The translations under genes were made by a program, and so were the position numbers. Below, piece after piece: positions 8,722 through 48,100 of a stretch of 64,000 bases of DNA. Under the pieces are notes generated by a model, which worked only from the letters and a program-made list of their open reading frames with translations, was not told where the DNA came from and did not search any database. Source of the DNA: Sipunculus nudus. Taxonomy: Eukaryota; Annelida; Sipuncula; Golfingiida; Sipunculidae. The DNA is taken from NCBI GenBank assembly GCA_026874595.1, contig CM049315.1, positions 19,675,664 through 19,739,663 on the forward strand, written 5' to 3'. Positions within the stretch are counted from its first letter, which is position 1; the number at the start of each line of letters is the position of its first letter.

Positions 8722-8854
8722 ATGACGGAGGAACCAAAAAGGGAGAGAGAAACTTGGAACAACAAGTTGGACTTTCTTCTTGCTTGTATTGGTTTTTCCG
8801 TAGGGCTGGGGAACGTCTGGAGATTTCCATACCTGTGCTACAAAAATGGTGGAG
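8722..8854 (+). CDS. SLC6 transporter coding exon 1 (start codon, TM1)
   Basis: Encodes residues 1-44 plus the first base of Gly45. The short N-terminus ([18 protein letters not shown]) leads into TM1, with the unwound GLGN motif, Arg34 of the outer gate, and YKNGG at the exon end. The ATG was chosen because it is the first in-frame Met before the conserved W-x-x-K-x-D-F-x-L segment and has A at -3. Family N-termini vary, so an upstream coding exon is possible but not needed. The donor is GTAGGT at 8855. Ser26 takes the place of the usual Ala at the Na1 backbone site (LeuT Ala22), which is compatible because the carbonyl does the binding. Intron 1 that follows is 24.3 kb, far longer than any other intron here. 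Confidence 0.95.
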
Positions 8855-26149: not shown

Positions 26150-29100
26150 GACATTTGGTCTACTTTATAACTATGAAATCGGCGAGACCGCGGATTGTAT
26201 ATTTATAATCAGAAGTGTAATTGTTTCTTAATGAGGTTTATTGAGGCGATATCAACAAAATATTCGTACTAATTTAGCTGGATATATTGTTACTGTGCTA
26301 AAGGGTTATCGTCGGCCATAACTAGACAGCGAACCTGAAATATAGGGCTTGTCCTCATGGTCACTGGGATACCATTTGTAATGAGCAAGTACGATCCGCG
26401 CGACACCTGGCGCCAGTTTTCTTATGTAAGATTAAAGTGTAGTTCTTATGAGAATAAGCCAAAGACCAGAAGACTTGAGCCTCAGTTTACGGACTAAATT
26501 TTTATCGGCTACCGTTGGAAGTTTTGAATCCTTAACTTCAGCTTAATTTATTTTATTGAAATATATTCGCGATCAGTTTCTTGTGTTTAAAAACCAGAGC
26601 ATATGAACGAGCTCGGTTGTCTATTGGCGAACTCAGTGACCTAAACTCGGGGTCACGTGCTAACAACAGTATGAACATTTGGAATGCACGCAATTTTCGT
26701 TGCAATGCTTTCTTTAACAACATCAAGACACTGAGCAGCCAGCCATACAGTAGATAAAAGGACCACATAGCAGATCTAGTGAAACCGAGCTGTATACATA
26801 CATCCGTAAAGGTTGCCGATTATAACACTTGTTGTGCAAATGTGCAGCAAAATCAGGTGTCCTTAGTTAAGGTGCAATGGGCCACAATGACACTTATATA
26901 AATAGATTTTCTACTCTACAGTAGTTGCACTGATAAAAAGCATTTGTTAACATGTCCTTGAAAGATCTAAGCACTTTCATGAGAATTATCCTCTATAAAC
27001 TTACTGTATTTAATAAGTAAATAGCGTGGCTGTGACAGATTGTGACATACTTAAAGATGGGAGGAGACTCCTTCAGTACAGTGATTTCTTGTTCACTATT
27101 GCCATCATAAGAATTCACACAAGTACCTTCACTACATTTGCGTTACTTTAATGTACACGTATTGACGTGTGTAAGTACCTTCACGACATTTGCGTTACTT
27201 TAAGTACACATATTGATGTGTGTAAGTTCCTTCGCGACATTTGTGTTACTTCAATGTACATGTATTGACGTGTGTAAGTATCTTCACGACATTTACGTAC
27301 GTTACCTAAATGTACATGTATTAATGTGTGTTGCTGTTTCATATGCTTGTGTGTCTTTATATATTAATGTTATGCATTTCACCTTATACTATATATTCGG
27401 ATTTATTGTCTGACATGTGAGACACAACACGAAAGCAATTAAATGTGTTTAAATATTAAGTTTTAATTAAAACACACGTCACTGTCAGACTGATATAAAC
27501 GATGCACTGGTGTTTCGCATGTTTCACTTTATTTCTCCTTATTACATGAATATGTTATTACTATCAAAGTTGTTTGTGCATGTTTGTGCTAGAATTTCTT
27601 GTACATTTTTCGACATATCTAGAACTTTGACACATTGGTACAAAAGATAGCGCTTACATTGATAATTAGTTTTTTTTATGAAATGCCAAACAATATTTGG
27701 TCTTTATTGTTAATTAACTACCGGCGGCTTTATTTATGCAAATAAACAAAAAAATTATAAATTGTATGGATAGTACTTAAATGTAATTATGGTTATTGAA
27801 TTTCTACTGCGTACTTAAAACTTTTGAGTATATGCCTGCAGGTGCAATTTTCGCGAAGAAATTTCTATTCTATTTAACAAGTATAACGTTAGAGGGAAGA
27901 AACACTTTTGAAATATAAGAGTGTAATTAAGAGTGCGTCGTTTAAAAAAGATGAGCTTAGTCCATGCCTTTTATTAACATTTACATGAGTATAGTTATAG
28001 GAATGCAAAGTGTGTTGCCATGTTGTATTTCAAGCGTGAAACTAAAAGCGCTCAGGGTGTACAGAGGCATCTCGTATCATGTTATTCATTAAACGAGCGG
28101 CTGTCAAACCAGGCACGTCAAGACTTTACTTCTGGCATGACGGCGATGGCACAGGAAAAACACAAACAGATCCTTCATTCATAACACACGCGCGGCTGCC
28201 AAACCATGTCCGTAAAAGGTTATACGTTTCATTACCAAAACCGAACAAAGAACACATGTATAAAGTATTGTGACATCTCCTTCAGACGAGAGTACATAAA
28301 TTTCATTGTAAATGTGAATAAAGCGGTGCGGTGGAAAACATAAGCTATTCTTTCTTATTCGTTAAAGACCTAAATGGACGTGTCTTAAAGTAAAATTACA
28401 GAGTAGGAAACATTTAAATGTTTATAATTCCTTTTATTTGGCCTATAGAAGTTATACCTCAAATTTGTTGTACATGTATTTGCAAAATTTGATTTAAAAT
28501 CAGGACTTGGACAAAAAAGGTACAGTCTCATTTCACTTATAATAATTTATATATTACTGTTTAAAGCGAACAGACAATGTAGAGTTTACCAGGAGACAAA
28601 ATTAATGAGGATTTTTATTTTGTTGACGCTTGTTCGGTTCTTGACGTAAGATGATTTAGACGTAACCTAATGATCTGTCAGTTATATATAAAAACCTAAA
28701 ATACCATGGCCTTCACTGTATGCTTTTTTGTGTTTCTTTTATCTTTTCTTTGAAGTGGTAAGATATATCACAAAACAAGGGTGTACTTGAAATAAAATTC
28801 TTGAACACACACGTATAATTAAATATAGATAAATATTTGCTTGAAATATTTATTCTCTGAATTCTTTAATCAGGTAAATTATATGTCTCATGTGTATATT
28901 GTTTCTATTCACATTTCTTACCATATATTTCTTTGACAATGCTATAATTGATTATTGTTAGTATTCCCTGTTGACAATCTTTCTGTCTCTAACTTGAGTT
29001 CCACCTTTCTATAAGCTCGCCAGGCACTACATGTGGTTACTGACCTGAGCCGACATAAAATATACCGTGAGTGTATGTTATAAAGTCGGGTTTACAAAGT

Positions 29101-32100
29101 TTATCTCCATGCCTATACATGATTAAATTTTTTTTTCATATCAGCAAGATCAAGATAATGGGGCATAGTAGTTAATTACGCATGAATTTTATTGAAAATA
29201 TGCTGTCTTGACTTCAAAACGTAAAAAAATACATGATTGTTAGTAAATAAGTTGGTTTTCGTCAGTCCGGCATATTATCATTACTTAATCAAGTCGTTAA
29301 TCAGATCATATATAGAGATATCATTGAGATATTGTCTCATCTGTTCATCTGTATATAATTCACTCACTGTTGGAATTTTTTGGGTCAACTCACTCTAAAA
29401 CACGGAGAAAACATGTACGTCTTAGTTGTTTCTTATCAGTTTGAAGATCTGTTTCGCTCAGCTGATGAGTTACACCTGTCTACCCAAATAAAATGGCTGT
29501 TATATTAATGACCCTAGAAATCATCAGTTACAGTAATGCTTCAGTGAGCAGGCACTTTCTACTGCGCTCAGTAACACTGAAGTTTAGTACGGTGTTATCG
29601 TTATAAATAATCAGTAACATAAACATCTTAACGTGTTATTCCTTAATTATTCATTGCTTTCGTAATTCGTTTTTATCCATTTTTTCATGACCTAGATAGT
29701 CCAGGCTATATCTTCAGGCCTTGATCGTATTATGTTTATGAAGTGGCATTCCTCACACGGTGTCAACATCTCTTTAAACATCTCTTGCAAACTTGTACTT
29801 CTGCTCAAGTCCACTGAAAATATTTCTACATGCATTATGTACTTGGCAGATTCAGAGGTATTTGAACTTGTACTCAATGAAGACCCCTATGGTTCACTTA
29901 CACAGGGGCGGATCCAGGATTTAGGAAAAGGGGGGTCCAACCCAGGAGACCAATGAAAATCCTATAAAAAGGTCATCAGATCTGGAAAAGGGGTGGTCCA
30001 GGCCGCAAAATTACGTCTAAAACCCCCTAAAAGAGGTTGCTTCGGATGAAAAGGGGGGGGGGGGGGGTGTCCAGGGGGTCCGGACCCCCTGGACCCCCCC
30101 CCCCCCCGACCCGCTTCTGCTTACATGAGGACCATTATAGACCTTCGCCACTGTATTTAAACATTATGTACGTATTTACTGCAGTGTTTGTAAGAGAATA
30201 TCAAAAAAGAATCTAAGGTACTATTAGCAGAAAACATAATATATTCACTGAAAGCGATGTCCTTTGAAAGATTTGAATAAATAAACGATGCGTGATAGTG
30301 TTCTCATAGTTTGGGGTATTTTATATTCTTAAGATATTGTAACTATGGCAACTGTAATTTATGGCAACATATTGGCCTATTGGTCCATCATTTGTTTGTT
30401 AAAATCGGTTTTCACTATAAATTTCAAATGTTTAATTTTCATTGGGTTCACTGTTATAAGCTTGTAGAAGTTAGTAGGAATAATTTTATTCAGAGCTTAA
30501 TTGTATTGTTCTTTTAATATGATCAAACCTGAATAAGTAGATGAGAATGAAAATAATCACGTGATCCACCAGTTCACAGGTAGCTAATTAAAGGATAAAA
30601 GTGTGAATCCATGTAATGCAGATCTTTTATCAGTGTGAACCATTTAACTAAGTGCACACAGTTGATATAGACGTCACATAGCACAGAGGCATCATTAGCA
30701 CCTAAACCGGTGCAAAAAGGCCACTTTGAGCAAAATAAACAGCAAAACACGTCGCCTTTTAATCAGGGTATATAGCGCTTTTTACAGTCGGTCTGAGCGT
30801 TTCCTCATTCCTGTTACGGAAATACGTGTAAAAACTCAAGATATTATATGCATTTTGAACTTGAAATTGCATGCTGTAGAATTTATTTCTCAGAAACTTA
30901 GATTGTCATAAAATTGTTAAATATTTGAAATTTCGATTCGAATATTTTTGGTCTGTTATGGCAGTCATTGAGTAAGACATTCCTATTTTCTTCAACAAAA
31001 TAAAAGAAACACTATATATAAATGCAAACTCTGACGCTCGATTTTCCTAAATTGGAATAAGTTCACCACAGGCAAAATTCCAGCCACCATGGTTACAATC
31101 TTCACCACAGTTGTAACTGGGTTAATTAAACTGTGATATATTATCATGACTCTTCTTTGAATCTCATTAACATAGAAATTTGGATAATTATATCCGTCAT
31201 TGGATTGTTTTTTTTTAAATTATTTTACATGGTTCATAGTTTGTGGACAATAGCGGCACATAAAAAAAACTAAAGTGAAACTGCTGAAAGTAAAACTTAA
31301 TTTATGCAATATACATGAAATGAATATTTAAAACAAATCACTAGCAGATCTGACTGTTTTCTACTGTAAAGGAACGTTCATGATGGCTTGTGGGACTTTG
31401 TGTTTACTTTTTTAACTAGGTTTTGTTTTTCTTTGCCTGACTTTGCTTTCTGATTCGAAGGAGCATTCTTTGTGCCGTATCTGATCTGCGTGGTCGTTGG
31501 AGGTATTCCTCTGACGTTGTTTTTTTTCAGGAGCGTTCTTGTGCCGTATCTGCTCTGCGTGGTCGTTGGAGGTATTCTTAAGATGTTGTGTTTTCTGTTT
31601 TTTCAGAAGCGTTCTTAGTTCATTATCTGATCTGCGTGGTTATTGGGGACATTCCTCTTATGCCCTTCTCACACTGGCGTGAAATGACGCGGGCCTAGTG
31701 GCGCTAACTTCAACGCCAGTTATCCCAAGGGGTTAACCCGGGTCATCGCCAGTAACCTCACTACTCTCCCGGTCTATGCCAAGTTTTGGGAATGTTCAAA
31801 AAGTTTCACTTTTAGCGCCTAAAGGCGCATGTCAACGCCAATCATTTTGTGTCATCGCCTATCTTCGCAGGTCAACGCCTAAAAAAAAAACAGGCTAAAT
31901 CCTCCAACGTGTCTTCGTCGTACGTGTCCAAGGACTAATCCCACCCAACAGGCAAAACAAATGACATCGCAAGCAATAGAAAACAGCAAAAAAATGACAA
32001 TATGTATTATAAGCGCCAGACGCCGATCTGAATTTGCGCAGACGATCGCGTATGCGCGAGCGCTAACATTAACCCCTGCCAACGCCTATAAACGCGAGTC

Positions 32101-35100
32101 ATAGCATTCAATCTTATGGTATGCGTTGACAGGCGTTCGCTGGCGTTAAAAAAGAAGGCGAGTCAACGTGGATTAACTCCATATTATGCGATGACTGGCG
32201 CAAATTTAGGCTTTGACCCACGTTGACTTACGTAAATTAATGCCAGTCATCCCCAACCAACACTATGACTACTTTCCATGGCGTAATAAACGGCGCTAAC
32301 TGTGAGATAACAGGCGTTGAAGTCAGCGCCACTAGGCGCGCGTCATTTCACGCCAGTGTGAGTAGGGCATTACGTTGTGTTTTCTGTTTTTCAGGAGCGT
32401 TCTTGGTGCCGTATCTGATTTGCGTGGTTACTGGGGGCATTCCTCTTACGTTCTGTTTTCTGCTTTTAAAAGGCGTTATGGTGCCGTATCTGATCTGCGT
32501 GGTTATTGGGGCATTCCTCTCACGTTGTGTTTTCTGTTTTTCAGGGGCGTTCTTGGTGCCGTATCTGAATCTGGGTGGTTATTCGGGGCATTCCTCTTAC
32601 GTTCTGTTTTCTGCTTTTCAGGAGCGTTCTTGGTGCCGTATAAGATCTGCGTGGTTATTGGGGGCATTCCTCTTACGTTCTGTTTTCTGCTTTTCAGAGG
32701 CGTTCTTGGTGCCGTATCTGATCTGCGTGGTTATTGGGGGCATTCCTCTCACGTTATGTTTTCTGCTTTTCAGGGGCGTTCTTGGTGCCGTATCTGATCT
32801 GCGTTGTTATTGGGGGCATTCCTCTTACGTTGTGTATTCTGTTTTTCAGGGGCGTTCTTGGTGCCGTATATGATCTGCGTGGTTATTGGGGGCATTCCTC
32901 TTCCGTTATGTATTCTGTTTTTCAGGAGCGTTCTTGGTGCCGTATCTGATCTGCATGGTTATTGGGGGCATTCCTCTTACGTTATGTTTTCTGTTTTACA
33001 GAGGCGTTCTTGGTGCCGTATCTGATCTGCGTTGTTATTGGGGGCATTCCTCTTACGTTGTGTATTCTGTTTTCAGGGGCGTTCTTGGTGCAGTATCTGA
33101 CCTGCATGGTTATTGGGGGCATTCCTCTTACGTTATGTTTTCTGTTTTTCAGGGGCGTTCTTGGTGCCGTATCTGATCTGCGTGGTTATTGGGGGTATTC
33201 CTCTCTTCTTTATCGAGGTCGCCCTGGGACAGTTCATGTCAGAAGGCGGCATCAAGGCATGGAACCTCGTACCTGTCTTCCAGGGTTTGTCCATCACTAA
33301 CATAATGGTTAATCCGATAAAAATAAGGGTAGGTTGTTAATATACAGCCCTCCCGTTTACCCCTACAGGAGCTGAAAACAGACAACTCGAATAAGATTTT
33401 AACGCTAACATTTTACAAACCAGTAGTCTTAATTTCTTTAAAATAATAATGCAAATTTACAGAGTACTTTATATTTTTTTATAAGTGTTCTTACATGATT
33501 TTCTCTATAAATATAATAGGTTGTTTTTTTTTCTATGTTTTTGGTCCAAAATATTGATGAATTTGTTGTTGTTTTATCATTATTGAAAGGTAAATTAATC
33601 TGATGGAATCATTGGAATAAGATCATGACACTTTATATTAAATACTTGCTTGGTTTGTATATTTTCACCAATGAATCCAGTATGGGCCTGTTTTAATAAG
33701 TATAAAAGAATAAGAATTAGGCGTATGGGATAAATCATTTTACAATAAGCCTTACATTTTCTGAAGATGCTTTAGCGTTAGAATATCAATTGGTATGACA
33801 GCAAATATTTCAGGGAATCGTATACGTTCATTGTTTCAGTGTGTAAACATGTAAAGTTGGACCAGGAAATTAACTTTTGTTACAAATGCTTTAAGTAGAA
33901 CTGTTTCATGTTGATATTTCATTATAGTCAACGGTCATATTATTTGGCATCGTTCTTACTAAAGAAACTTGTTGAGGGTTATTTGTTGTTAATTTCTCCT
34001 TAAATCGCTATTTGATTTTTTTTAAGAGAAGGGCAATTTAATATGGAAAAAAAATCAATAAATATTTTGTAGAACAAAGCTTATTTCAACGAATTAAAAA
34101 TATTTACTTGAAACGGTATATAGATAAATGAAACAAGTATTCAGCTGGTACAGCGTTAAGTTGATCACATTAGACTATAGTTCATCGCTGTCAAATAACT
34201 TTACCATCTAAAATGAGTCGTAGCTTTATCAGAATGTAATTCCATTTCTAGGTATCGGATTTGCCACGACGGTGATCGTGTTTTTCCTGAACTGTTACTA
34301 CAATGTCATTTTGGCCTGGGCGTTCCATTACTTCGGGTCGTCCTTCACCTCCGAGTTGCCCTGGATCAAATGCGGTAACTGGTGGAACACAGACGCGTGT
34401 ACAGATTTCACGCAGAAAGGCAACGCCACAAACGTCACAGGTCTGATGACTACCGTCGCTACTGCCGCCGCTACCAACGCCAGCAATGTTACCAAACGCC
34501 TCGACGCTACGACTGAGTACTGGGAGTGAGTACCTTAAGTTTAACCACAACATTAGCGACACCTGTCTGTCAAGGTTGACAATGAATATTCGGGTTCATT
34601 ATATCGACAAGCAAGGATATAATTTGTTATATAACAAATGTTTAAACATAATAAACTTTCTTTCTCATTATTGGCTTGGTTCTAGTCGGAAAAAGGGTGG
34701 CTGCAAACTGCGAAATAATGATTTTCTCGATATTTTCTCGAATAACAACATTTGTTTTGGGCATCATCATCGATACTCGTGTCTGTGTATTGATAAATAT
34801 ATTAGTGTGATACATCGTTGTATCACACTGACGATACATCGTTGTATCACGCTGACGATTCATTGTTGTATCACACTGACGGTACATCGTTGTACCACGT
34901 TGACGATACATCGTTGTATCACGCTGACGATACATCGTTGTATCACAATGATGATACATCGTTGTATCACGCTGACGATACATCGTATCATGCTGATGAT
35001 ACATCGATGTATCACGCTGACGCTACATCGTTGTATCACACTGACGATACATCGTTGTATTACGCTGACGATACATCGTTGTATCACACTGACGATACAT

Positions 35101-36052
35101 CGTTGAATCAAGCTGATGATACATGTACTGAAAGTATGGCACTACTGTTTATGTGAGAGCATCATTTTACTGTTCAGTCAACTTTGAGTCATTACCTTTT
35201 AATGAAATCAGGTTCTACATTGCTTCATAATTCATGGAAAGCCTTCTGTCAAAGGACATGTAGTTAACGACATATAGGGAAATCCACCTCCCGCGATACT
35301 GCATCTTTTAAGTGGCCTGTCAGTTTGTTTTGTTGACCGAGCTCCTTCGTTGCATCTTAGCAGGAGCAGTCTAATTCACTACAATCACAAACTGAAGAGT
35401 TTCAAATGTTTCACATATTTTCCTCAAGCATATGATGATGGGAGGAATGATTTCGATTCTGAGCTGTTCTACCAGCATATACATGTTATAAGAAGATGCG
35501 TATGAAGAACAAGCACAGTGCGCATGCTCATGGAATAGGATTAAGAATTGTCATTGAAAAAAATAACGTTTTCAATAACAATATCTGACATAAGATGGTA
35601 TTAAAACGAGTTTAAGAGATTAAATTCAAATGAAATGAGTCATTCATAAACATATTCAGTACTAAACACCAGAGAAAATCAAAGTGTCATTTTTTACCAA
35701 CAGTTACTTTTCATTCACTCATGTTTCTGCTGGCCAGTCATTTCAAGGTGGGACTCACAAAGGTAAAAAGAATGTGACTTAGGAAATAAATACGGCGCCG
35801 CACAACCCCTTGAGCAACGGATGTGACAGGGGTTTCCACAGCTGCTCTCTAATTTACAGCATGGCAGTTGGCACGGCGGTCTGTGTCAAGGGGCCTTTTA
35901 ACTACGCCATTATAACAGGGGCATAGCCAGGATTGAGGGAGGGGAGGGGGCCATGATCAGTGGCGGATCCAGAAATTCGAAAACGGGGGGGGGGGGGGGG
36001 GGGGGGCGCTAATATGTGTGAAATGGCACTATGAAAACTGTTATATATACAA

Positions 36053-36887: not shown

Positions 36888-39736
36888 TATAAGATTAAGT
36901 GAAATTCCGAGAAGACGGCGAGTACTGGATGCGACCGGGGGGGGGGGGGGCTGTCAGCACAGTTATCATACAAGAGACTAATTGTGTCAGAGCACTGATA
37001 AACATTATTTATTTTACATTGATTGTACAATTAGTTACAATAACTAGTACGAGGCACTGTCCATGGCTCGGATGTTGGCGCTCGGTAAGACACACCTTAG
37101 TCCACTAATAAACAATCTGTTATGTTGTACAGGAACAAGGTTTTGGGCATATCGTCCGGCATTGATGACGTAGGCACCATCAAGTGGGACCTTGCTCTGT
37201 GTTTGGTCGCCGCCTGGATTGTCGTCTATCTATGTATCTGTAAGGGCATCAGGACTTCAGGAAAGGTACAGTCAACCCACCTGATTTATCAGATAAGACC
37301 GAGAACATTTATCTGTTACTTAAGTTTTAAAAAAAAGTGTGGTCGGAGCAGGCCTTCTCGGCAAAACCACACTCACAACATCTGTTGGCGACGATTGGCA
37401 CTTATTCCTCCGGTCCGTTTTACCAGAAAAGAAAGATAGCATTTTTTATAAACAAATAAATGGTTAATGTATGAGTTTCGTTTTTCTTATAAAATATCCA
37501 TCAATTCAATGAATTGCATATACTTGTTGAAATGGTTTGAATTATAACAGTTTTTCAATCCTCCTGGAAACAACTTCGATTGTTCGACTGAGTTCCTTCT
37601 CAAAATAAGATTTGTTTTAATACAACACCAGATAATTTGTAGTCAAACGCTCTTTGTGATTTGGTATTAAAAACCAAAGTAAAAGAAGGAAAGATGGACA
37701 GTTTTAGATAAACATAGGTATACACAATAAAAATAATGCGGCTTATAGATATTAATTTATGTTTATAGCATTCATTCTCTCCACCAGGTGATGTACGTGA
37801 CTGCCACCAGCCCCTACATTTTCATGACTATCTTATTAATACGTGGATGTCTCCTAGATGGCGCTAGAGACGGTATCATCTACTACGTATACCCAGAAAT
37901 TAACAAGCTCAGAAACATGCAGGTACATCCAGTCACAATTATTGTATTTTATACTTCAGAACAGGGGCGTCATTTTCGTTTGCAGTATATGTATGTGTTT
38001 GTGAAGACATAGGTTTTTCTTTTTTCTAGGATAGGTCTGTTGTCTTTAGTAAGAGGATTAATTATATGTAAATGGCGGTGTACCAATTATTCGACATGCC
38101 ACCTGTGGCATCCTGATTTTAGTGTGTACCGTAATGGCAGCCCCCGTGAGCTGTCTCAAGAAACTTAGAGAAATAAACCTGTCAAGATTCGATAAGGGCG
38201 TGAGGATGCGATACAAAAGTTTGGTGGAAAGGGGAGGTGTATCGGCATTTAAAGCGGGATAGCGCATTTTTATGAACCACGCCCAAATCCTCTAACTACA
38301 GTACGAGCATTAAGTCTTCTGGTTTTCACGTTTTATATGCACGGGGCCAGGAATAGTTCAGAAAGCATAACCATCAACTTTCTGCTCCTTAGTCCACTAC
38401 AACGCTCGGCCACTTAGTTTACTGAGTGGTTGTTGAATATAGAGAATGAGTTTGAATTAAGAGAAGTGCACCTGGTTGACAAGATCAATTATTTTCTTCA
38501 GAGTCTGACTGTCATCTCTCGTTATCAGAAAAATGATCATTTACACTTTGCATTAAATTTTGAAATGAAGAATCCATGCATTGTATTAATTCAAAAGAAA
38601 ACATAAGATTTATTTTTGCTTAGTTTCAATATTTAATTAGGAGAATAAATATAAGGTTAAAATGGGATGTAAAAATATGGATACGAAATAAAAATTCATC
38701 CTCTTCGAAATACTCAACAATGTGTCATCAAGAAGAGGCTCTTGTGCATGTCGCGGCAGGAACATCAGCAATTCTAGATAAATATAAGGGGGGTTAACTA
38801 TTCAGAATTTATAAAAATGTTATAAAAAGCGAGTTGTGTTTAAATATTATTACATACGTTTCGCTGTTTAGCTTTTGGTCTAGTATATGAATCCGAGTTT
38901 TGTGTTTTACAATAATGTTAAGCCGTAAACATTCACGAGATTTTCCAGCTAAAAAAAGAACTCTCATAGACAAGTTGTAGCGAGATGTTATATATAAGCC
39001 TGTTGGACTTATTGTTTATCTGCATGTATTATTTCACTAGGAGAAATCCATACGCCATAGTTCACGTTATGCATTCTATAATTATCAGAATAAATCCTAC
39101 ATTTTCCACTTGTATTATTAATTTTGCAATGGTGGCCACTGATGATATGATTTTAAACAGCATAGGGGGTTGTTGAGGTATAAGGACAAAATTTTGAAAC
39201 TTTGTTAGGTTCTGTCCCCGTTGATTATGTTTATTCGACCAATCTATGGGACCAATCTATGTTTGTGGTTTTAACAACTTTCCTACAGGTGTGGGTGGAC
39301 GCTGGTACCCAGATCTTCTTCTCATACTCGATATCTCTTGGGGCGCTGACGGCACTCGGCAGCTACAACAAATTTAAACATAATTCTTACAGGTGAGGCA
39401 ACAAGTTTAGTGGCAAGAGCTGACACTAGGTGGCGCTGGCACCAAACATAAGACCTTCCAGTCAGTACATGGGGGATACACAGTAATGACTATAAAAATG
39501 ACTATATATATAAGGATGCCTTGCGACAACAACTATTCATTTTACAATTTACATGTAAATGTGACTTTTGCCTTTGAACGTTGTACAGGATTTGCATACA
39601 CGCCCGCACACACATATTATTATTGTAATACATTTTTTTACCTGTATGCTAATTGCTAATGGAAGCTTGATAACAGACTTTCGCTTAACAAAGATGCCCG
39701 TCGTACTTAGAAAAACTCAGTGCATTCATCAAACCA

Positions 39737-39790
<54 letters not shown>

Positions 39791-40043
39791 GGTTTAAGTA
39801 TTTTTCTGATTTTAGGGATTCCATCATTTTTGCGGTGGCTAACAGCGGGACCAGTATTTTCGCGGGGTTTGTGATCTTCTCCGTCCTCGGTCACATGGCC
39901 AAGCAGCAGGGGGTCAAGGTCTCCGAGGTCGCCGAGTCTGGTAGGAAGTTGTCTAACTCAAAACACTAAATCACAGGTTATTTGGTATTTTAAGTAAAAG
40001 CTTGTCTTATCTGTTGTACAATATATATATATATATTATATAT

Positions 40044-40313: not shown

Positions 40314-41652
40314 ACACACAACTATACATGTACAGGACATTATTATATTCAAACAAATTTCCCTCATATTCTTTTACTTATTAAATTGTAAGTTACTGCA
40401 AGGGTGAAACATAATTTTGTAACCTGGCGAGGATTCGACCTCTGACCCTTATGACTTATGCCATGTAGGTCCAGGGCTCGCTTTCATCGCCTATCCTAAG
40501 GCTGTGGCCGTGATGCCTATCGCCCCCTTGTGGTCGGTTTTCTTCTTTCTGATGATCATCCTGCTCGGTCTTGACAGCCAGGTAAGCTTCTTTCTTATGA
40601 GATAAAATACGTTAATTATTATTTACGGTAATATCTTTTTTTCTTTCTTTCTTTTATTAACATTCCCCGATAATTTACGGTAATATACTACTTTCGTATC
40701 AGCGCCATCTGTTTCTCAGTCATAGAACTTTTTCGAAAAAAAAAAATTTTACATCCGTTTTTTTACAGCTGTCCAGTTTGGTTAAAAGTACCATGCAATT
40801 TAGCCATCATTAAGCAGTCTTTATTTGTTTCACTGACTGAATAGTTATATGTCACTATGTCACTGGCGAGGAGGACTTACCATTCATTATACCACCATAT
40901 TGTAGCCACCTAATAATTCTGATTCAATGTTATTGTGTATTACGTTTTTATAGAATGAGATAAAATGTAAAATCTATGCTTTCACTGTCTGCTTGTAGTA
41001 TATCCACTCCAAATGGTATTCCCAATGCAATTAATAAAACTAGAAATAATTGAGTAGATGCTTTTACACATTCTTATACATTTCCTTTTGCTAAATCATA
41101 ATAAGAACTTCATGTACATGTAGAATATTCTTTTATTTTTAAGCTTTAGCACGGGACAAGGAATGCTTGAGAAAATATTACAAGTAATCAAGATTTCATA
41201 GCAAATCTTATAGTGTTTCCTGAGACTTTTTCAGACCTATCATGGTATATTTTCTCAACCACCGATTTACCGTCCCATACCAGAATACATAAGCGTTTGT
41301 TTGTTGTAGTTTGTGGGAGTGGAGGGGTTGGTGACGGCTTTCCAGGATTTCTTCCCCTCTCTCAGGAAGACACCAAACAGGGAGATCTTTGTCGGGGTCA
41401 TGTGTCTCATTATGTGCGGCATTGGTCTGAGCATGGTCACTAACGTAAGTATAAACAGTAAGGTCACGTGGCCAGGTCACAGCCTGCTGATTATTTTTTT
41501 ATTATAATAACATTATAACTCTTAATAATATATGTAATATTAAAAATTCCAGATTAATTCGAACTGCATTCTGGGCTTTTATTTAAAAGAAAGAAACATG
41601 ATTTCATATGCATAATGCATTTATTTATTGTGAATAACATAAATTACACACA

Positions 41653-41999: not shown

Positions 42000-43843
42000 A
42001 ATAATATTTTTATTTTTATTTTTTATGATTATTAGTGTTATAATAATTATTATCACTATTATATTATTTACAGGCCGGGATGTACGTGTTCCAGCTCTTT
42101 GACTACTACTCAGGGAGCCGTATTATATTGTTAGTGGCCTTCTTCGAGTTGGTGGCCATTGCCTATGTCTACGGTGAGTCCAGAGGTTCATCTCTAAAAC
42201 ATTGGCAGCTCTGCTGGCGGTGATGCCTGTCAGGGTCATTTCCACAGGAGTTTGACACACCGAGGAACGATATTAGAAGCACCAATGGGCCTATCCCCCT
42301 GTTACCTAACTTACCAACCTCCCCATCAATTAAACATATGGTTCCTTTACTTTTACTGCTTATTCACCTAATTATGCTATAATCACCTCTAAATAAGAGC
42401 CAGAGTGGAAGCGGCCAAGTGGATAGATTGAAAAGTTGTTTTTAGCTTTATTTAGAGATGATTGTAGCACATTTTAGGTGGACAAGCAGTGCGAGAAAGG
42501 GAACCATGTTAAATAAGTGGTAAGGTGACGGGGGAATGGGCCATCCAATCTCCCGCCAAAGGTCGTTATATCTACGCTTGTGCTTGTGATTCCGAGTCAG
42601 TGTGTGTGTGTGTATATGTGTGAGTCGGGGGGAGGGCATTATACATGGTGTGTAATTTCGCTCACCCGGTACCATTGGTCATTGCCATGTCATTTAAAAA
42701 TTAGAAAAGTCGTGCCTTCAGAATATAATTAATATGATTTACATAGTTCTGTTGGCTGATGATATGGATGTATGGCTGAGGATAATGCATCGCTGGACGG
42801 GTTTAAATAGTCAGTATTGACCCCCAGTTTTGCTCAGAATTTTTGCAAGAAATAATATGGCAATAATATAATATTCACATATAAATGACAATTTATGACA
42901 AATTCGGGAAACATATCTTCGAACACCAGCTCCATAATGACGCTGGCATACCTTCAGTTTGTTTCAACAATGTATAACCCGAATCTCTGTGACAAATCGC
43001 GCACTCTCCGGGTGCAAATGTCACATGTCAACTATGAATGAACTTAATCATACGACTGTGCAAGGATTTGTCTATTAGTATGGAATTTTTTTCCGGGGAT
43101 GTATTTTTCATGTTTTCACAAAGAAGGATGGAAAACATTCGTTAAAGAAAACAATTTCGCCTGGAAAACACAGTGCATAATACCAGCCCAGATTACTTGA
43201 AGGACCACCTGATTAGATAGTGTCGAATAGCAACTACTAGTATTCCTCTAGGTATAATGAAGCGCATTATTATGGTGTGGAGATCGGTGGATATATAATA
43301 GATGAATACTTATTGTAAAATCCACAAAACCACGGGAGAAAAACATTAACCAGATATTTAATATTAAGGTATATTTATCAAAATTCCTATAAAAACTTAA
43401 AACCTTGTTTTAGATATGATTATCCAGTCAAACAATTAAAATATGTAAAACAAAAAACGATAATAGCTATCACGCTGGATGGACCAACGAAATCATTATC
43501 ATTATATACAGTACCAAGGGCAGATCAAGGAGGGGAGGACTGAGGGGGGCTCACCGAAGGTTTCCTAAAAGATTCCATTAATTTACCATTGACAGTACTG
43601 CATTTCGATCAGAGTGATGACTTGCTACATTATCATGTATAAAATATCGTCTTTTCAGGCGTGAACCGTTTCTATGACAACCTCCAGATGATGTTTGGCT
43701 TCAGGATCAATCCTTTCATGAAGTGGATGTGGTTGGTGGCGTCTCCTATCTTTTGTCTGGTAAACTATTTACCCTTGTTCTTATAATGTTGAATTGAAGC
43801 TCTCTTTGTTTGGATTTCGGATATATGTTAAATGTACAAATTC

Positions 43844-46800: not shown

Positions 46801-48100
46801 CTCTGCACTGCTGAAAATGCTTAATTTTGTATTTTTGTTTGTTTCAGACCATCTTTATCATGAGTGCCATTAACTACTCTGAGCTTTCGTATGAGCGGCC
46901 CAGTGGCGAATACATCTACCCGCAATGGGCCATTGGAATCGGATGGGCCCTCGCCTGTCTCTCCGCTATCTTCATCCCCCTGGTGGCGATAGTGAAAGTT
47001 ATACTGGTGTGCGCCAGAGGCCAGGTATGACATAGCCGGGGGGGGGGGGGGGGGGGGGGATATTTATATACCAAAGAATTGCCCTAATTTGGGCCAACAA
47101 AACCCATTTGTTGCGTACGTCAAAGTCGTCCTTATATGTCCCCTGGCTTTACCATTGGCATTATTCAAGACATGGGCAACTGAACACATGGCTTATTTTA
47201 CTTGCTTTAGACATTTGTTGTTCCTATTTATAGAGATGCTGATTGAAGTGAAGGTTAAAGTGTTATCATACCCTTGTGCTCCCCGTATAGCAAAATCCTG
47301 GGTCCCCCCCCCGTAATAATGTTACACGGGTTTTGTTTACTCATGTAATGGAATGATATTAATTTCATGTATTAAAATGAAGGATGTGGTTGTCGCAAAA
47401 TGCTTTACTAGGTTGGTTTGCGTCCGTATTGACCTTATCGGGCTAGATTAATGAGATTAGAATTACATTCAGTGGGTATCACTGGACTCATTATGATGTC
47501 ATAATTTGCTCCCCTGCTTCATTTGGGTAGATATGGCCCGGACGAAAAAATAAAATAGTAACAAGTTTAACATTTAATCATTGAATTGGAAAAGATGACT
47601 GAGCTTTTGCCCTTTACTAGCTCTTCTCTCAATTGTAAAAATTTACACCATTTAAATTCGATAGCGAATTTCAGCATTGACGTGGTATAAAATAGATGAC
47701 ATCTGCCATTTAAGATATGTAGGTGTGTTCCTGAGAATTAAAGTATCATTATTTTGTCCAGAGTCAATCGTGTATACACTGTATTTTTTCTATAAGGTAT
47801 ATACCATAGAGCTAATTTTTTTAAAGACAAACTGAAGATTCGTGGAATGTCGTAAAATTGATTTTTATTTACGGCATTTTGAAAATTATTTCATATGGGA
47901 GGAAGCAGAATTGATTGACATTTTTATTAACCTTTGACTTGTCATTTCAGCCATGGAAAGCTCTCATAACACCCGAAGGACTGAAGGAGCATCAACTGAG
48001 ACCGCAGGATTATGGAGAACAAGGGATCTTTACTAACATAGAAAACCAGAATAGGGACACGGCATACCAAAACAAAGCATTCGATGAAAAACAAATGTAG
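8722..48100 (+). CDS. SLC6A-like: SLC6 family Na+/Cl--dependent transporter (GABA/taurine/creatine-like), 13 coding exons, whole gene span
   Basis: Joined exons: 8722-8854, 33153-33284, 34252-34525, 37133-37265, 37788-37922, 39289-39392, 39816-39940, 40469-40581, 41310-41444, 42074-42173, 43659-43759, 46848-47024, 47951-48100. Total 1,812 nt, 603 residues and a stop; all introns are GT-AG and phases agree, so the model is internally consistent and of usual SLC6 length. The product should be a plasma-membrane symporter of 12 helices with cytosolic ends. Seen: TM1 [11 protein letters not shown] (27-37), extracellular-gate Arg34 and Asp438, Cl- site Tyr51, Gln277, Ser281, Asn313 and Ser317, Na2 residues Asp381 and Ser382, EL2 Cys129/Cys138, sequons at Asn146, 149, 164 and 167. 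Gly28 replaces the Asp of monoamine transporters, and motifs such as ENKVL and FVGVEG fit the taurine/creatine/GABA branch (family knowledge). The substrate is unresolved. Any untranslated first exon upstream is not visible. Confidence 0.96.
8855..14229 (+). other. Intron 1, 5' part
   Basis: Starts at GTAGGT. Holds a (TG)n-G15 tract (9960-9987), the GGATCC fragment at 12098 and (TTA) units near 11310; otherwise unremarkable AT-rich sequence. Confidence 0.6.
12098..12160 (+). mobile_element. Fragment of the GGCGGATCC repeat family
   Basis: GGGCGGATCCATAAAGGGTT precedes a run of about 20 G (12119-12138) and GTCC. This matches the left end of the elements at 29904 and 45122. Only the terminal part is recognisable. 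Confidence 0.45.
14230..15434. mobile_element. 1.2-kb non-autonomous DNA transposon with CCCCGTCACA ends
   Basis: Left end AAAACCCCCGTCACAAAAG; right end inverted TATCCCCGTCACACTTATTC. TAACGGT flanks both sides (14223-14229 and 15435-15441) as a possible 7-bp target duplication. The inverted similarity continues loosely (GGCGGAATGAGCCGGA against TTCGGAATC...CAGCCGGA). The left half is built from repeated GCATTCTAAT/GCATTCGA words. Open frames inside are short and unrelated to known transposases. Superfamily unassigned. Confidence 0.6.
16148..16489. mobile_element. 340-bp inverted-repeat element
   Basis: The left arm (16148-16216) and right arm (about 16415-16489) are inverted copies about 70 bp long with several mismatches; both share TTTCATTCGACACAC and GCTCCCA(C/T)GGGG. 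The 200-bp interior has no gene. No target duplication identified. Confidence 0.6.
17320..17940 (+). repeat. Five degenerate tandem copies of a ~123-bp unit
   Basis: Units marked by ATTGT(T/G/A)(G)GTGG near 17350, 17469, 17590, 17722 and 17846, each followed by GT..ACGA.AA, CAGATATGTAT and TTTCAGGC(T)GATAT. Divergence is high, so it is old. Within intron 1. Confidence 0.8.
17941..18260 (+). repeat. Degenerate short repeats with TGAACTCTTGACCTG
   Basis: GAGTGAATTCTTGACCTG, GTGAACTCTTGACCTG and GAGTGAACTCTTGACCTG occur at about 18030, 18063 and 18099, then related pieces (ATTGACCTGTTG...AAATCTG) up to 18250. Continues the 17320 repeat cluster. Confidence 0.6.
18720..19203 (+). repeat. Two degenerate tandem copies of a ~300-bp repeat
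   Basis: Both copies contain ATATGAGTCATGTGAC, AACATTTG and CCTGTAACTCGGC (about 18770-18900 and 19075-19200). A further tail with CCTGTCGTTTTTGAGATAGT and ACGACGGACGACGGACGAC follows at 19695-19760, after the SINE-like sequence, suggesting the SINE split the repeat. Confidence 0.65.
19204..19550 (+). mobile_element. SINE-like element with a tRNA-Leu(CAA)-like head
   Basis: TGGCTAAGGGG (about 19211) matches a pol III A box and GAGTTCGAATCTC (about 19255) a B box. Between them CAGGACTCAAAG looks like a Leu CAA anticodon arm with a longer variable arm. The acceptor stem does not pair, so this is not a working tRNA. A GC-richer body of about 270 bp follows. Target duplications not resolved; the 3' limit is approximate. 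Confidence 0.55.
19590..19800 (+). repeat. Tail of the intron-1 repeat cluster with GACGGACGACGG
   Basis: Contains ACTAGTTCCTGTCGTTTTT, a copy of wording seen near 18810 and 19125, then three tandem GGACGAC motifs. Similar GGACGGACGACGG endings occur near 63030. Confidence 0.5.
23437..23480 (+). repeat. (GA)n-(GACA)n microsatellite
   Basis: (GA) units followed by GACAGACA repeats in intron 1. Confidence 0.95.
23962..24020 (+). repeat. (TA)n microsatellite
   Basis: 59 bp of TA in intron 1. Confidence 0.98.
25981..26146 (+). repeat. Compound (TA)n/(CATA)n tract
   Basis: TA blocks at both ends with CATACATA and TATTAAATATACA words between; spurious Tyr/Ile-rich frame. Confidence 0.95.
27119..27333 (+). 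repeat. Four-copy ~54-bp minisatellite
   Basis: Units begin (A/T)AAGT(A/T)CCTTC.C.ACATTTGCGTTAC at about 27120, 27173, 27226 and 27280 and include TGTACA(C/T)(G/A)TATTGA(C/T)GTGTG. In intron 1. Confidence 0.85.
27334..29903 (+). other. Intron 1, no feature recognised
   Basis: AT-rich; no repeat or exon noted. Confidence 0.5.
29904..30119 (+). mobile_element. GGCGGATCC-family repeat with G15/C14 hairpin
   Basis: Starts GGGGCGGATCCAGGATTTAG, then GGGGGGTCCAACCC. The same order of words is present inverted at 45010-45122, showing a dispersed family. The 3' part has G15 (30053-30067), a perfect 26-bp palindrome (30069-30094) and a C run to 30107. Non-coding. Confidence 0.7.
30120..31460 (+). 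other. Intron 1 before the acceptor array
   Basis: AT-rich; nothing recognised until the first exon-2-like copy at 31461. Confidence 0.5.
31461..33204 (+). repeat. 14-copy, 76-bp tandem array of the intron-1 acceptor plus start of exon 2
   Basis: Exon-like starts are seen at 31461, 31531, 31607, 32395, 32471, 32545, 32622, 32698, 32774, 32850, 32926, 33002, 33077 and 33153. Each unit is 52 nt homologous to the first 52 nt of exon 2 plus about 24 nt of pyrimidine-rich intron end with AG. Spacing is 74-77 bp (70 for the first), except across the inserted MITE between copies 3 and 4, where removing 712 bp gives 76. The outer left copies are most divergent; copy 2 has a 1-nt deletion and copy 5 has CAG changed to AAA. 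No unit has its own 5' splice donor. The array is within intron 1, and only the last copy continues into unique exon 2. Confidence 0.95.
31661..32369. mobile_element. 709-bp MITE with TTA target-site duplication (PIF/Harbinger-like)
   Basis: The left end is TGCCCTTCTCACACTGGCG and the reverse complement of the right end is TGCCCTACTCACACTGGCG; the inverted similarity extends for about 55 bp. The flanks carry TTA at 31658-31660 and 32370-32372, a single TTA in the uninterrupted repeat unit, so the insertion event is directly visible. Subterminal motifs GTCA(A/T)CGCC recur in both halves. A 3-bp TTA duplication is typical of PIF/Harbinger elements. No transposase frame is present. Confidence 0.85.
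33153..33284 (+). CDS. SLC6 transporter coding exon 2 (TM2, Cl- site Tyr)
   Basis: Completes Gly45 and encodes residues 46-88 plus the first base of Gly89. It holds GAFLVPY with Tyr51 (the Cl--site Tyr, LeuT Tyr47), TM2, the conserved E-x-x-L-G-Q-F motif (66-72) and the first cytosolic loop. The acceptor is TTTTTCAG at 33145-33152 and the donor is GTTTGT, a weak non-consensus site at +3. The first 52 nt (33153-33204) are the last copy of a 76-bp tandem array; only from 33205 is the exon unique. Choosing this last acceptor is required: it alone joins exon 1 in frame to the family-conserved sequence. Confidence 0.95.
33285..34251 (+). other. Intron 2
   Basis: 967 bp, GTTTGT to CTAG, AT-rich, no repeats of note. 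Confidence 0.85.
34252..34525 (+). CDS. SLC6 transporter coding exon 3 (TM3 and extracellular loop 2)
   Basis: Encodes residues 90-179 with split codons Gly89 and Glu180. TM3 contains [10 protein letters not shown], whose Tyr105 matches the substrate-site Tyr of LeuT (Tyr108). The large second extracellular loop has Cys129 and Cys138 at the family's spacing for a disulfide, then a Thr/Ala/Asn-rich stretch with four N-x-S/T sequons (146, 149, 164, 167). The loop ends in EYW, the usual approach to TM4. Acceptor TTTCTAG, donor GTGAGT. Reading past the donor joins a long open frame through a 24-bp minisatellite, which is an artefact and not coding. Confidence 0.95.
34809..35125 (+). repeat. 24-bp minisatellite of hairpin units in intron 3
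   Basis: About 13 copies of GATACATCGTTGTATCACGC plus TGAC; each contains GATACA...TGTATC, a 6-bp stem with a 4-nt loop. One unit lost TTG. Because the period is a multiple of three, all frames on both strands look open (up to 206 codons); these are artefacts. Confidence 0.95.
35958..36821. mobile_element. 864-bp inverted-repeat element of the GGATCC group containing a tRNA-like sequence
   Basis: Left end CAGTGGCGGATCCAGA, right end inverted CAGTGGAGGATCCAGA. A run of 22 G follows the left end (35985-36006) and a GC-rich CGCGCCGAAGGCGCC hairpin lies by the right end. The interior holds (TA)n, (TTA)n and the tRNA-like stretch at 36475. Confidence 0.65.
36475..36660 (+). mobile_element. Degenerate tRNA-like (SINE-type) sequence
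   Basis: GGACTCTTAAGAGC resembles a Leu TAA anticodon arm, and GCGAGTTCGAGTACC resembles a B box; the A box is poor. It is nested inside the inverted-repeat element at 35958-36821. Probably a decayed SINE head. Confidence 0.35.
36843..36885 (+). repeat. (TA)n microsatellite
   Basis: 43 bp of TA in intron 3, followed at 36937-36950 by a G14 run. Confidence 0.97.
37133..37265 (+). CDS. SLC6 transporter coding exon 4 (TM4)
   Basis: Completes Glu180 and encodes residues 181-224. It starts with [10 protein letters not shown], continues with [10 protein letters not shown] at the start of TM4 and ends in KGIRTSGK before TM5. This W-D/E-L-A-L-C-L and KG(I/V)(R/K)(T/S)(S/T)GK pattern is typical of the GABA/taurine/creatine subgroup. 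Acceptor GTACAG, donor GTACAG. The exon ends on a codon boundary. Confidence 0.95.
37788..37922 (+). CDS. SLC6 transporter coding exon 5 (TM5, extracellular loop 3)
   Basis: Encodes residues 225-269 (45 whole codons). V-x-Y-x-T-A-T begins TM5 and I-R-G-C-L-L ends it, followed by the loop-3 segment [10 protein letters not shown] that precedes TM6 in this subfamily. The acceptor CCACCAG uses the AG at 37786-37787; the donor is GTACAT after CAG. Confidence 0.94.
37923..39288 (+). other. Intron 5
   Basis: 1,366 bp, GT-AG, nothing recognised inside. Confidence 0.85.
39289..39392 (+). CDS. SLC6 transporter coding exon 6 (TM6, ion and substrate site)
   Basis: Encodes residues 270-303 plus two bases of Arg304. 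[12 protein letters not shown] carries Gln277 and Ser281, equivalents of LeuT Gln250 and Thr254 in the Cl-/Na1 region. The unwound [12 protein letters not shown] segment is characteristic of the taurine/creatine/GABA branch. Acceptor CTACAG, donor GTGAGG. Confidence 0.95.
39739..39788 (+). repeat. (CT)n microsatellite before exon 7
   Basis: About 50 bp of CT ending 27 nt before the exon 7 acceptor. Confidence 0.97.
39816..39940 (+). CDS. SLC6 transporter coding exon 7 (TM7)
   Basis: Completes Arg304 and encodes residues 305-345 plus one base of Gly346. NSGTS (313-317) provides Asn313 (Na1) and Ser317, the residue that lets eukaryotic members bind Cl- where LeuT has Glu290. It ends with SEVAES before loop 4. 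Acceptor TTTTAG, donor GTAGGA. A long (CT)n tract (39739-39788) lies just upstream of the acceptor and may act as an extended polypyrimidine tract. Confidence 0.95.
40021..40121 (+). repeat. (TA)n microsatellite, intron 7 block 1
   Basis: About 100 bp of TA with two interruptions. Confidence 0.98.
40238..40309 (+). repeat. (TA)n microsatellite, intron 7 block 2
   Basis: About 70 bp of TA, 116 bp after block 1. Confidence 0.98.
40469..40581 (+). CDS. SLC6 transporter coding exon 8 (loop 4, TM8, Na2 site)
   Basis: Completes Gly346 and encodes residues 347-383. [12 protein letters not shown] is the conserved loop-4 hairpin, and TM8 runs to LLGLDSQ with Asp381 and Ser382, the Na2 residues (LeuT Thr354/Ser355). 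Acceptor ATGTAG, donor GTAAGC. The upstream intron 7 contains two long (TA)n blocks. Confidence 0.95.
41310..41444 (+). CDS. SLC6 transporter coding exon 9 (end of TM8, TM9)
   Basis: Encodes residues 384-428 (45 whole codons). [16 protein letters not shown] finishes TM8 and its cytosolic loop, and [17 protein letters not shown] is TM9. The segment before TM10 reads MVTN where the family usually has VTE/VTD followed by Gly-Gly. Acceptor TTGTAG, donor GTAAGT. Confidence 0.94.
41654..41727 (+). repeat. (TTA)n-(TTG)n microsatellite, intron 9
   Basis: Abrupt switch from TTA to TTG units at about 41695. Confidence 0.97.
41950..41998 (+). repeat. (TTA)n microsatellite, intron 9
   Basis: About 16 units, 75 bp before the exon 10 acceptor. 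Confidence 0.97.
42074..42173 (+). CDS. SLC6 transporter coding exon 10 (TM10, outer-gate Asp)
   Basis: Encodes residues 429-461 plus one base of Gly462. [12 protein letters not shown] includes Asp438, partner of Arg34 in the extracellular gate (LeuT Asp404). The next residues are S-G-S-R where most relatives have S-A-S-G, putting Arg444 early in TM10; this is unusual but supported by an open frame and consensus splice sites (TTTACAG and GTGAGT). Long (TTA)n and (TTG)n arrays lie in the preceding intron. Confidence 0.94.
42174..43658 (+). other. Intron 10
   Basis: 1,485 bp, GTGAGT to TTTCAG; short (GT)n near 42600, otherwise nothing recognised. Confidence 0.85.
43659..43759 (+). CDS. SLC6 transporter coding exon 11 (start of TM11)
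   Basis: Completes Gly462 and encodes residues 463-495. [23 protein letters not shown] (residue range 462-484, shown only to locate it) matches the G-x-x-R-F-x-D-N-x-x-M-x-G pattern of the TM10-TM11 loop. TM11 starts at about 483. Acceptor TTTCAG, donor GTAAAC. Confidence 0.93.
43847..43885 (+). repeat. (TA)n microsatellite, intron 11
   Basis: 39 bp of TA. Confidence 0.97.
44317..44547 (+). repeat. Tandem duplication, ~131-bp period, in intron 11
   Basis: The two copies share AAGT(T/A)ATTAGCGAAA, TCGACATA, TTAGATAA(T/C)TGTTGTTT and GCTTTGTTCGCTAATGAA-like words (about 44319 and 44450). Not coding. Confidence 0.75.
44558..44860 (+). mobile_element. Copy of the GGCGT MITE family, probably truncated
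   Basis: Left end CAGGGGCGTCAATACAAGGG, then GTATACCCCC with a C15 run (44590-44604). Interior AGAATAATATTGATATATTG matches that at 5998. A purine-rich GAGA tract is at 44683-44720. The right terminus was not found. Confidence 0.5.
45010..45122 (-). mobile_element. GGCGGATCC-family repeat, inverted orientation
   Basis: On the minus strand reads GGCGGATCCAGGATTTAGGA then GGGGTCCAACCC and a poly-G tract (C15 on the plus strand at 45012-45026), matching 29904-30060. Confidence 0.65.
45568..45725 (+). repeat. C-rich CCCGC(A/C)-repeat island in intron 11
   Basis: Irregular repeats of AACCCGCCCCGCAC and CAGCCCGCA in an otherwise AT-rich intron; strongly C-rich on the plus strand. Flanked by (TA)n on the left. 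No open frame of interest. Confidence 0.7.
45726..46847 (+). other. Intron 11, 3' part
   Basis: AT-rich with a (TTTA)/(TAAA) inverted pair near 46590-46645; no exon. Confidence 0.6.
46848..47024 (+). CDS. SLC6 transporter coding exon 12 (TM11 end, TM12)
   Basis: Encodes residues 496-554 (59 whole codons). It completes TM11, then an outer loop with the family motif Y-x-Y-P-x-W-(A/G)-x-x-(I/L)-G-W, then TM12 (about 525-548). Acceptor TTTCAG, donor GTATGA. The donor is followed within 14 nt by a run of 22 G. Confidence 0.95.
47038..47059 (+). repeat. G22 homopolymer at the start of intron 12
   Basis: Uninterrupted G run beginning 14 nt after the exon 12 donor (GTATGA at 47025). Confidence 0.97.
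47951..48100 (+). CDS. SLC6 transporter coding exon 13 (C-terminal tail, stop)
   Basis: Encodes residues 555-603 and [19 protein letters not shown] matches the start of the cytosolic tail, where relatives read W-x-x-(A/L)-x-x-P. The rest is polar and rich in Gln, Asn and Glu, ending DEKQM. No classical PDZ-binding C-terminus is seen. Acceptor CATTTCAG. Confidence 0.94.
   Translation, partial: PWKALITPEGLKEHQLRPQDYGEQGIFTNIENQNRDTAYQNKAFDEKQM

Follow-up and report, generated by a model that had tools for sequence, protein, structure and literature searches.

A tandemly repeated intron-exon boundary presents many acceptors in a row, and raises the question of which of them is used and why the array is kept. 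Such an array lies in a gene of the SLC6 family within the stretch of DNA analysed here, 64,000 nucleotides of contig 10 (19.676-19.740 Mb) of a 1.43-Gb assembly in 153 contigs; this whole stretch is called the window, and plain coordinates count from its first letter. The array occupies the final 1.7 kb of the gene's 24.3-kb intron 1. We argue that it is very probably a tolerated boundary minisatellite, of the kind called a 'mirage' in amphioxus genes, whose last copy serves as the working acceptor by exon definition. The papers cited below are drawn on as excerpts, and statements about their content extend to those excerpts.

An array of acceptors in an intact gene

The gene, on the + strand at 8722-48100, is intact: its 13 coding exons, 603 codons and GT-AG ends at each intron rule out a pseudogene. 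An earlier note, made from the sequence letters, had assigned it to SLC6, and the assignment holds. PF00209 (SNF family) scores 729.5 bits over residues 9-547 of 603, so that the SNF domain spans most of the protein; among solved structures the creatine transporter matches best, at 661.6 bits. The features are as follows, a slash marking a splice boundary.

8722..8854, + strand: SLC6 exon 1, coding part; 3' end GGAG/GTAGGT, phase 1
31437..31660, + strand: array units U01-U03, the most diverged; acceptors at 31459, 31529 and 31605
31661..32369, + strand: terminal inverted repeat (TIR) element TGCCC...GGGCA, 709 bp, between U03 and U04; TTA duplication at 31658-31660 and 32370-32372
32370..33128, + strand: array units U04-U13; ten decoy acceptors with about 52 nt of exon-2-like sequence after each (from Tandem Repeats Finder (TRF), AG positions and spacings)
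33129..33152, + strand: 3' splice site of intron 1 taken as the real one (U14); CAG after a pyrimidine tract, with branch-like CTTAC where the units meet
33153..33284, + strand: SLC6 exon 2, 132 nt; donor GTTTGT at 33285
34252-34525, 37133-37265, 37788-37922, + strand: SLC6 exons 3-5; introns GT-AG
39289-39392, 39816-39940, 40469-40581, 41310-41444, + strand: SLC6 exons 6-9; introns GT-AG
42074-42173, 43659-43759, 46848-47024, 47951-48100, + strand: SLC6 exons 10-13; introns GT-AG

The array (31437-33204) consists of 14 units of about 76 bp, each joining about 24 nt of the end of intron 1 to about 52 nt of the start of exon 2. The A of the AG lies at 31459, 31529, 31605, 32393, 32471, 32543 and 32620 in U01-U07, and at 32696, 32772, 32848, 32924, 33000, 33075 and 33151 in U08-U14; the successive spacings are 70, 76, 788, 78, 72, 77, 76, 76, 76, 76, 76, 75 and 76. 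TRF reports a period of 76 with 11.0 copies at 32370-33204 (score 1353, which rules out a chance repeat) and a period of 69 with 2.0 copies at 31459-31594. These data bear out the earlier description of a boundary amplified about 14 times in tandem with a 76-bp unit. A genome search with the last unit plus the remaining exon 2 as query returned 14 matching pieces, all at the window locus, and the unit is therefore not a dispersed repeat. The remainder of exon 2 is present only after the last unit, U14. As in a mirage, the tandem unit holds an intron end together with an exon start.

Splice signals and reading frame

An AG stands at or adjoining the boundary in each of the 13 decoys. One of them, U05 (TTTTAAAAG/GCG), is out of register, which leaves nine of the ten units U04-U13 in register. 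The earlier note had credited at least ten upstream copies with both a plausible acceptor and the peptide GAFLVPY; the acceptors stand, whereas the exact peptide occurs in only 6 of the 13 (U04, U06, U07, U09, U10 and U11). U08 and U12 encode EAFLVPY, and the remaining five are altered or frameshifted.

Pyrimidines number 13-17 in the 20 nt before the AG of the decoys and 11-16 before the gene's 12 real acceptors. Since the tracts are alike, the choice of acceptor is unlikely to be set by each site's own strength. Ten of the 13 decoys, and the real unit as well, contain a branch-like yTnAy word, mostly CTTAC or CTCAC, which begins 24 nt upstream of the AG where two units join. Many units thus retain splice signals, as those of mirages do. 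AG scanning begins at a branch site that has already been chosen, and the earlier argument that use of the last site would run contrary to first-AG scanning was in this respect imprecise: with ten decoys carrying their own yTnAy word, the choice is one among whole 3' splice sites.

When exon 1 is joined in silico to each acceptor in turn, all 13 decoys lead to a premature stop, and the last acceptor alone gives 603 codons. We therefore deduce from the reading frame that the last acceptor is most likely the working one. The same result upholds the view of the array as a ladder of 3' splice sites that compete with one another, without cassette exons. Cassette or mutually exclusive exons are ruled out, given that good donors are absent from the units and the frame is broken. 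Recursive splice sites (AG/GT) are likewise ruled out in the window, where the units read AG/GG, AG/GA, AG/AA, AG/AG or AG/GC.

The claim that no unit has a donor is correct for good donors, but on a crude consensus count the best donor-like site of the decoys, ATG/GTTATT in U11 and U13, scores 6/9 and so ties with the real donor AGG/GTTTGT. This weak site bears on the suggestion that the array is raw material for a new intron, a decoy's exon piece becoming an exon, as in a model of intron gain from mirages that was proposed for like structures in amphioxus globins (PMC3087553, in the excerpted text). We consider such a role very improbable here. A usable exon is absent at present: a U13 piece that ended at ATG/GTTATT would be separated from the last acceptor by about 44 nt. 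The intron position at exon 2 is, moreover, common to the five paralogs read.

Measured backwards from the donor, exon 2 is 132 nt long to the last acceptor, versus 208, 283, 359 ... 1824 nt to the decoys. We propose the following mechanism. A segment of about 76 bp, reaching from near the branch site of intron 1 into exon 2 as far as codon 17 or so, was duplicated in tandem; the array then grew and was partly homogenised, by what we infer to be unequal exchange or conversion, and a transposon insertion later split it. The functional copy would be the last one because the remaining exon 2 follows only that copy, leaving the upstream copies as decoys free of selection. Exon 2 is most likely defined backwards from its single good donor, the simplest selector, which would favour the last acceptor and the shortest exon, 132 nt; use of a decoy would yield a premature stop and probably nonsense-mediated decay. 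A 14-step ladder of this kind amounts to a natural experiment in the choice of acceptor: the sites are of near-constant strength and differ mainly in position and in the resulting length of the exon. Should the last site be used every time, exon definition from the donor would carry more weight than the order of transcription.

Conversely, the decoys could have a function: the upstream acceptors might divert a portion of the transcripts to unproductive splicing, or help to capture exon 2 after a 24-kb intron, and the array might be kept for that reason. The decoy pyrimidine tracts resemble that of the real acceptor, and every decoy leads to a premature stop, both of which speak for this explanation. 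We nevertheless judge it unlikely, and the way in which the units have diverged is one source of evidence on the matter.

Divergence of the units

Within U04-U14 every pair of units differs, by 0.042-0.139 (mean 0.084), and the mean divergence between U01-U03 and U04-U14 is 0.195. The unit at the 3' edge, U14, is no more diverged than the interior, lying 0.054-0.097 from U04-U13. That is, the array has the homogenised interior and the diverged edge units of a mirage, the latter at its upstream edge. Divergence increases with distance along the array when all 14 units are considered (Mantel r 0.37, p 0.0036); within U04-U14 the relation is not clear (r 0.16, p 0.15).

The exon parts of U04-U13 show 20 differences from the consensus, 6 synonymous and 14 nonsynonymous, where a synonymous share of 0.28-0.31 is expected under neutrality. 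These exon parts look neutral, changing without coding constraint, and the counts rule out coding selection on the ten decoys. In U01-U03, 13 of 21 differences are synonymous (p 0.003). Changes shared among these three units shrink the effective sample behind this excess; with those common to U01 and U02 counted once, by hand, it is 10 of 17 (p 0.014). The excess suggests that, once those units had budded off, the functional copy kept changing under selection.

Selection on the splice sites of the decoys would be a further expectation of a functional ladder. Variable positions make up 19/240 of the intron part of U04-U13 and 20/500 of the exon part; since the intron part is the more variable, it lends no support to such selection. 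Nor is the intron sequence of these decoys less variable over its last 12 bases (7/119) than the exon part (24/478). Both this and the neutral change of the exon parts argue against a function of the ladder.

A transposon within the array

The wide step between U03 and U04 is due to the 709-bp element listed above, whose TIR arms measure 68 nt and are 93% complementary. Once the element and one TTA are removed, the spacing falls from 788 to the normal 76 bp, and the element is therefore younger than the array. Its relatives are dispersed in the genome, with at least 147 matching pieces from 40 scored candidates. Among the copies inspected, TTA or TAA precedes the left end in 10 of 10 and follows the right end in 8 of 11. 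On the strength of its ends and TTA/TAA flanks we take the element to resemble those of PIF/Harbinger type.

An insertion with its target duplication inside the array also bears on the possibility of an assembly artefact, that is, of one boundary copy falsely multiplied. Tandem repeats are sometimes misassembled, and the mirage of the amphioxus globin gene BflGb6 was aberrantly assembled in a draft (PMC3087553, in the excerpted text). An artefact is nonetheless highly unlikely here: besides the transposon, the differences among all pairs of U04-U14 and the presence in other genes of arrays with different unit lengths count against it.

Arrays in sister SLC6 genes

Exon 2 of SLC6 genes is found at 52 places in the genome, the window included; five extra hits in this search are the window's own decoys. 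We examined 40 of the 52 exon-2 acceptors (39 paralogs and the window), reading up to 800 nt upstream (709 in L060, 614 in L061 and 230 in L062). Short decoys escape the genome search with exon 2, and it was reading the segments upstream of exon 2 that brought out four further acceptor arrays, refuting the idea that partial duplicates of exon 2 occur only in the window. Acceptor arrays are thus present at 5 of the 40 boundaries; the other 35 lack one in the stretch read.

contig 10, 31437-33204 of the window, + strand: exon-2 acceptor array of the window gene, 76 bp
C16:35.266 Mb: exon-2 acceptor array of L060, 53 bp, 6.6 copies
C16:35.239 Mb: exon-2 acceptor array of L063, 55 bp, 6.9 copies
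C1:110.213 Mb, minus strand: exon-2 acceptor array of L070, 64 bp, 11.8 copies
C17:59.834 Mb, minus strand: exon-2 acceptor array of L075, 25-bp pieces in a 155-bp period

The units of L060 and L070 were chosen by an intact TAG, and their AG counts are uninformative. In L070 four identical 64-bp decoy units adjoin the real exon 2, with a 191-bp higher-order period upstream, which suggests recent turnover of that array. In L075 25-bp pieces like GTGTGTTATGTCATCTTTATTACAG repeat before exon 2 and give a recurring AG/GTGTGT, resembling recursive splice sites. Arrays of differing age and unit length form a set in which one could follow tolerance, turnover and perhaps the birth of introns.

We also searched for boundary arrays at other exons, among 112 SLC6 exon hits in 31 loci (tblastn, E 1e-4; two decoy hits of L037 removed; one overlapping pair, in L039). 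These comprise 15 hits to exon 2 and 97 others, 14 of them first coding exons; L037 was fetched for its tandem hits and is thus pre-selected. Four of the 112 have a boundary array, three at acceptors and one at a donor.

C16:60.0919-60.0923 Mb, minus strand: exon 8 acceptor array of L037, 117 bp, 3.3 copies
L040: exon 4 acceptor array, 120 bp, 6.0 copies
L054: exon 4 acceptor array, 47 bp, 7.9 copies
C9:65.9936-65.9940 Mb, minus strand: exon 8 donor array of L041, 121-126 bp, 2.8-2.9 copies

L037 has three acceptors of exon 8. Its unit length of 117 is divisible by three and the array is open, so that upstream use would add in-frame copies of transmembrane segment 8, unlike in the window. In the donor-side array of L041 the end of exon 8 is present three times, with GAGGTACGTC or AAGGTACGTC.

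When the 40 merged arrays of the 31 loci are placed at random, 4.46 +/- 1.79 exons with a boundary array are expected, versus 4 observed. Boundary arrays therefore occur about as often as minisatellite density predicts, and in SLC6 loci they seem largely tolerated. Both this near-random rate at other exons and the 35 exon-2 acceptors without an array argue against a functional ladder.

Several observations weigh on the other side, against an array that is tolerated and nothing else. An AG has been kept at or adjoining the boundary in all 13 decoys, and the use of the last acceptor is a deduction from the reading frame. Moreover, exon-2 acceptors carry arrays more often than other exon hits do (5/40 versus 3/97, Fisher p 0.047; without the pre-selected L037, the other exons give 2/96 and p 0.023), and within 39 exon-2 segments (L062 dropped) five of seven arrays lie on the acceptor, where 2.98 are expected (p 0.048). 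These tests were framed after seeing the data, and L060 and L063, neighbours in a single gene cluster, may have a common origin. The excess might point to a hot spot or to selection. Both the over-representation of exon 2 and the recurrence at its boundary in 5 of 40 genes, with units of 76, 53, 55, 64 and 25/155 bp, favour a functional ladder. In its strongest form such a ladder would have arisen several times at the SLC6 intron-1/exon-2 boundary and been kept as a sequence-encoded splicing attenuator, tuning the productive share of transcripts; this, too, we hold to be improbable.

The host genome and the mirages of amphioxus

The Hox cluster contains 11 genes in lophotrochozoans and 15 in amphioxus. 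In the present genome ten Antp-like homeodomains lie in one orientation at 56.36-58.77 Mb of contig C12, a count that very diverged Hox genes may escape; three are 71-76% identical to Antp (anterior-like), five 90-93% and two 54-60% (posterior-like). This layout resembles a lophotrochozoan cluster and not that of amphioxus, and the host is probably no amphioxus. The green fluorescent protein (GFP) is present in Asymmetron and Branchiostoma (PMC4911609); a search for the GFP family gave no match in the genome, but the control was silent too. The beta-sandwich domain of molluscan haemocyanin likewise gave no match, again with a silent control, so that neither result proves absence. The chromosome-sized contigs encountered are C1-C17, a number that would suit several molluscs; Asymmetron, however, also has 17 chromosome pairs, and the Hox layout is the one useful clue.

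The earlier note was aware of no gene described as having an acceptor array of this sort. The mirage of BflGb6 is, however, of the same kind: the 3' end of the intron and the 5' part of exon 2 are tandemly duplicated (6 units in one haplotype, 3 in another), and the gene reportedly splices normally (PMC3087553). Boundary duplications have also been reported in amphioxus Adh3, TnC and PGBD5 (PMC3087553, PMC3902484; TnC and PGBD5 in the latter), and the Adh and TnC mirages are said to cause no aberrant mRNAs (PMC3087553, PMC3902484). The normal splicing reported for amphioxus mirages (PMC3087553) is a further argument against a function of the decoys.

The window array shares with the mirages of BflGb6 and BflGb9 a minisatellite-like repetition (of intron end and exon 2 start in BflGb6), many units with splice signals, and a boundary unit left out of interior homogenisation (PMC3087553). 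Its diverged upstream edge and similar U04-U14 are much as described for BflGb6 (PMC3087553). It differs in its dimensions, with 76-bp units and 13 decoys plus the real site, as opposed to units of 150-160 bp repeated 6 or 3 times in BflGb6 (PMC3087553), and in its setting: a transposon splits it, and it belongs to an SLC6 gene of a genome whose Hox layout does not look amphioxus-like. Like the mirages of Adh3 (units of 10-72 bp), TnC and PGBD5, it is a short tandem duplication across a splice site (PMC3087553, PMC3902484); unlike them, it lies in another gene and probably in another lineage. Tandem repeats in human segmental-duplication genes are likewise of minisatellite scale, some of them at exon-intron boundaries and altering gene structure (PMC2812944). 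The excerpts tell of repeats inside exons and of novel introns, and a long acceptor ladder is not among the cases described in them.

In the open-access literature, as represented by these excerpts, we found no boundary array this long outside the cephalochordates, which is no proof of absence. What is new here is that arrays recur at one and the same boundary in several SLC6 paralogs and, probably, that a mirage occurs in a lineage for which the literature searched describes none. The recurrence suggests that mirages are not peculiar to lancelets.

Other observations

Rfam and tRNA scans of the window gave no matches. TRF finds further minisatellites in introns of the window gene, at 34809-35124 (24 bp, 13.3 copies), 27121-27331 (52 bp, 4.0 copies) and 17486-17875 (127 bp, 3.1 copies). 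Elsewhere in the assembly, the small contigs C131, C102, C133 and C122 carry long open SNF frames of 422-505 amino acids, which possibly belong to bacterial contaminants or symbionts.

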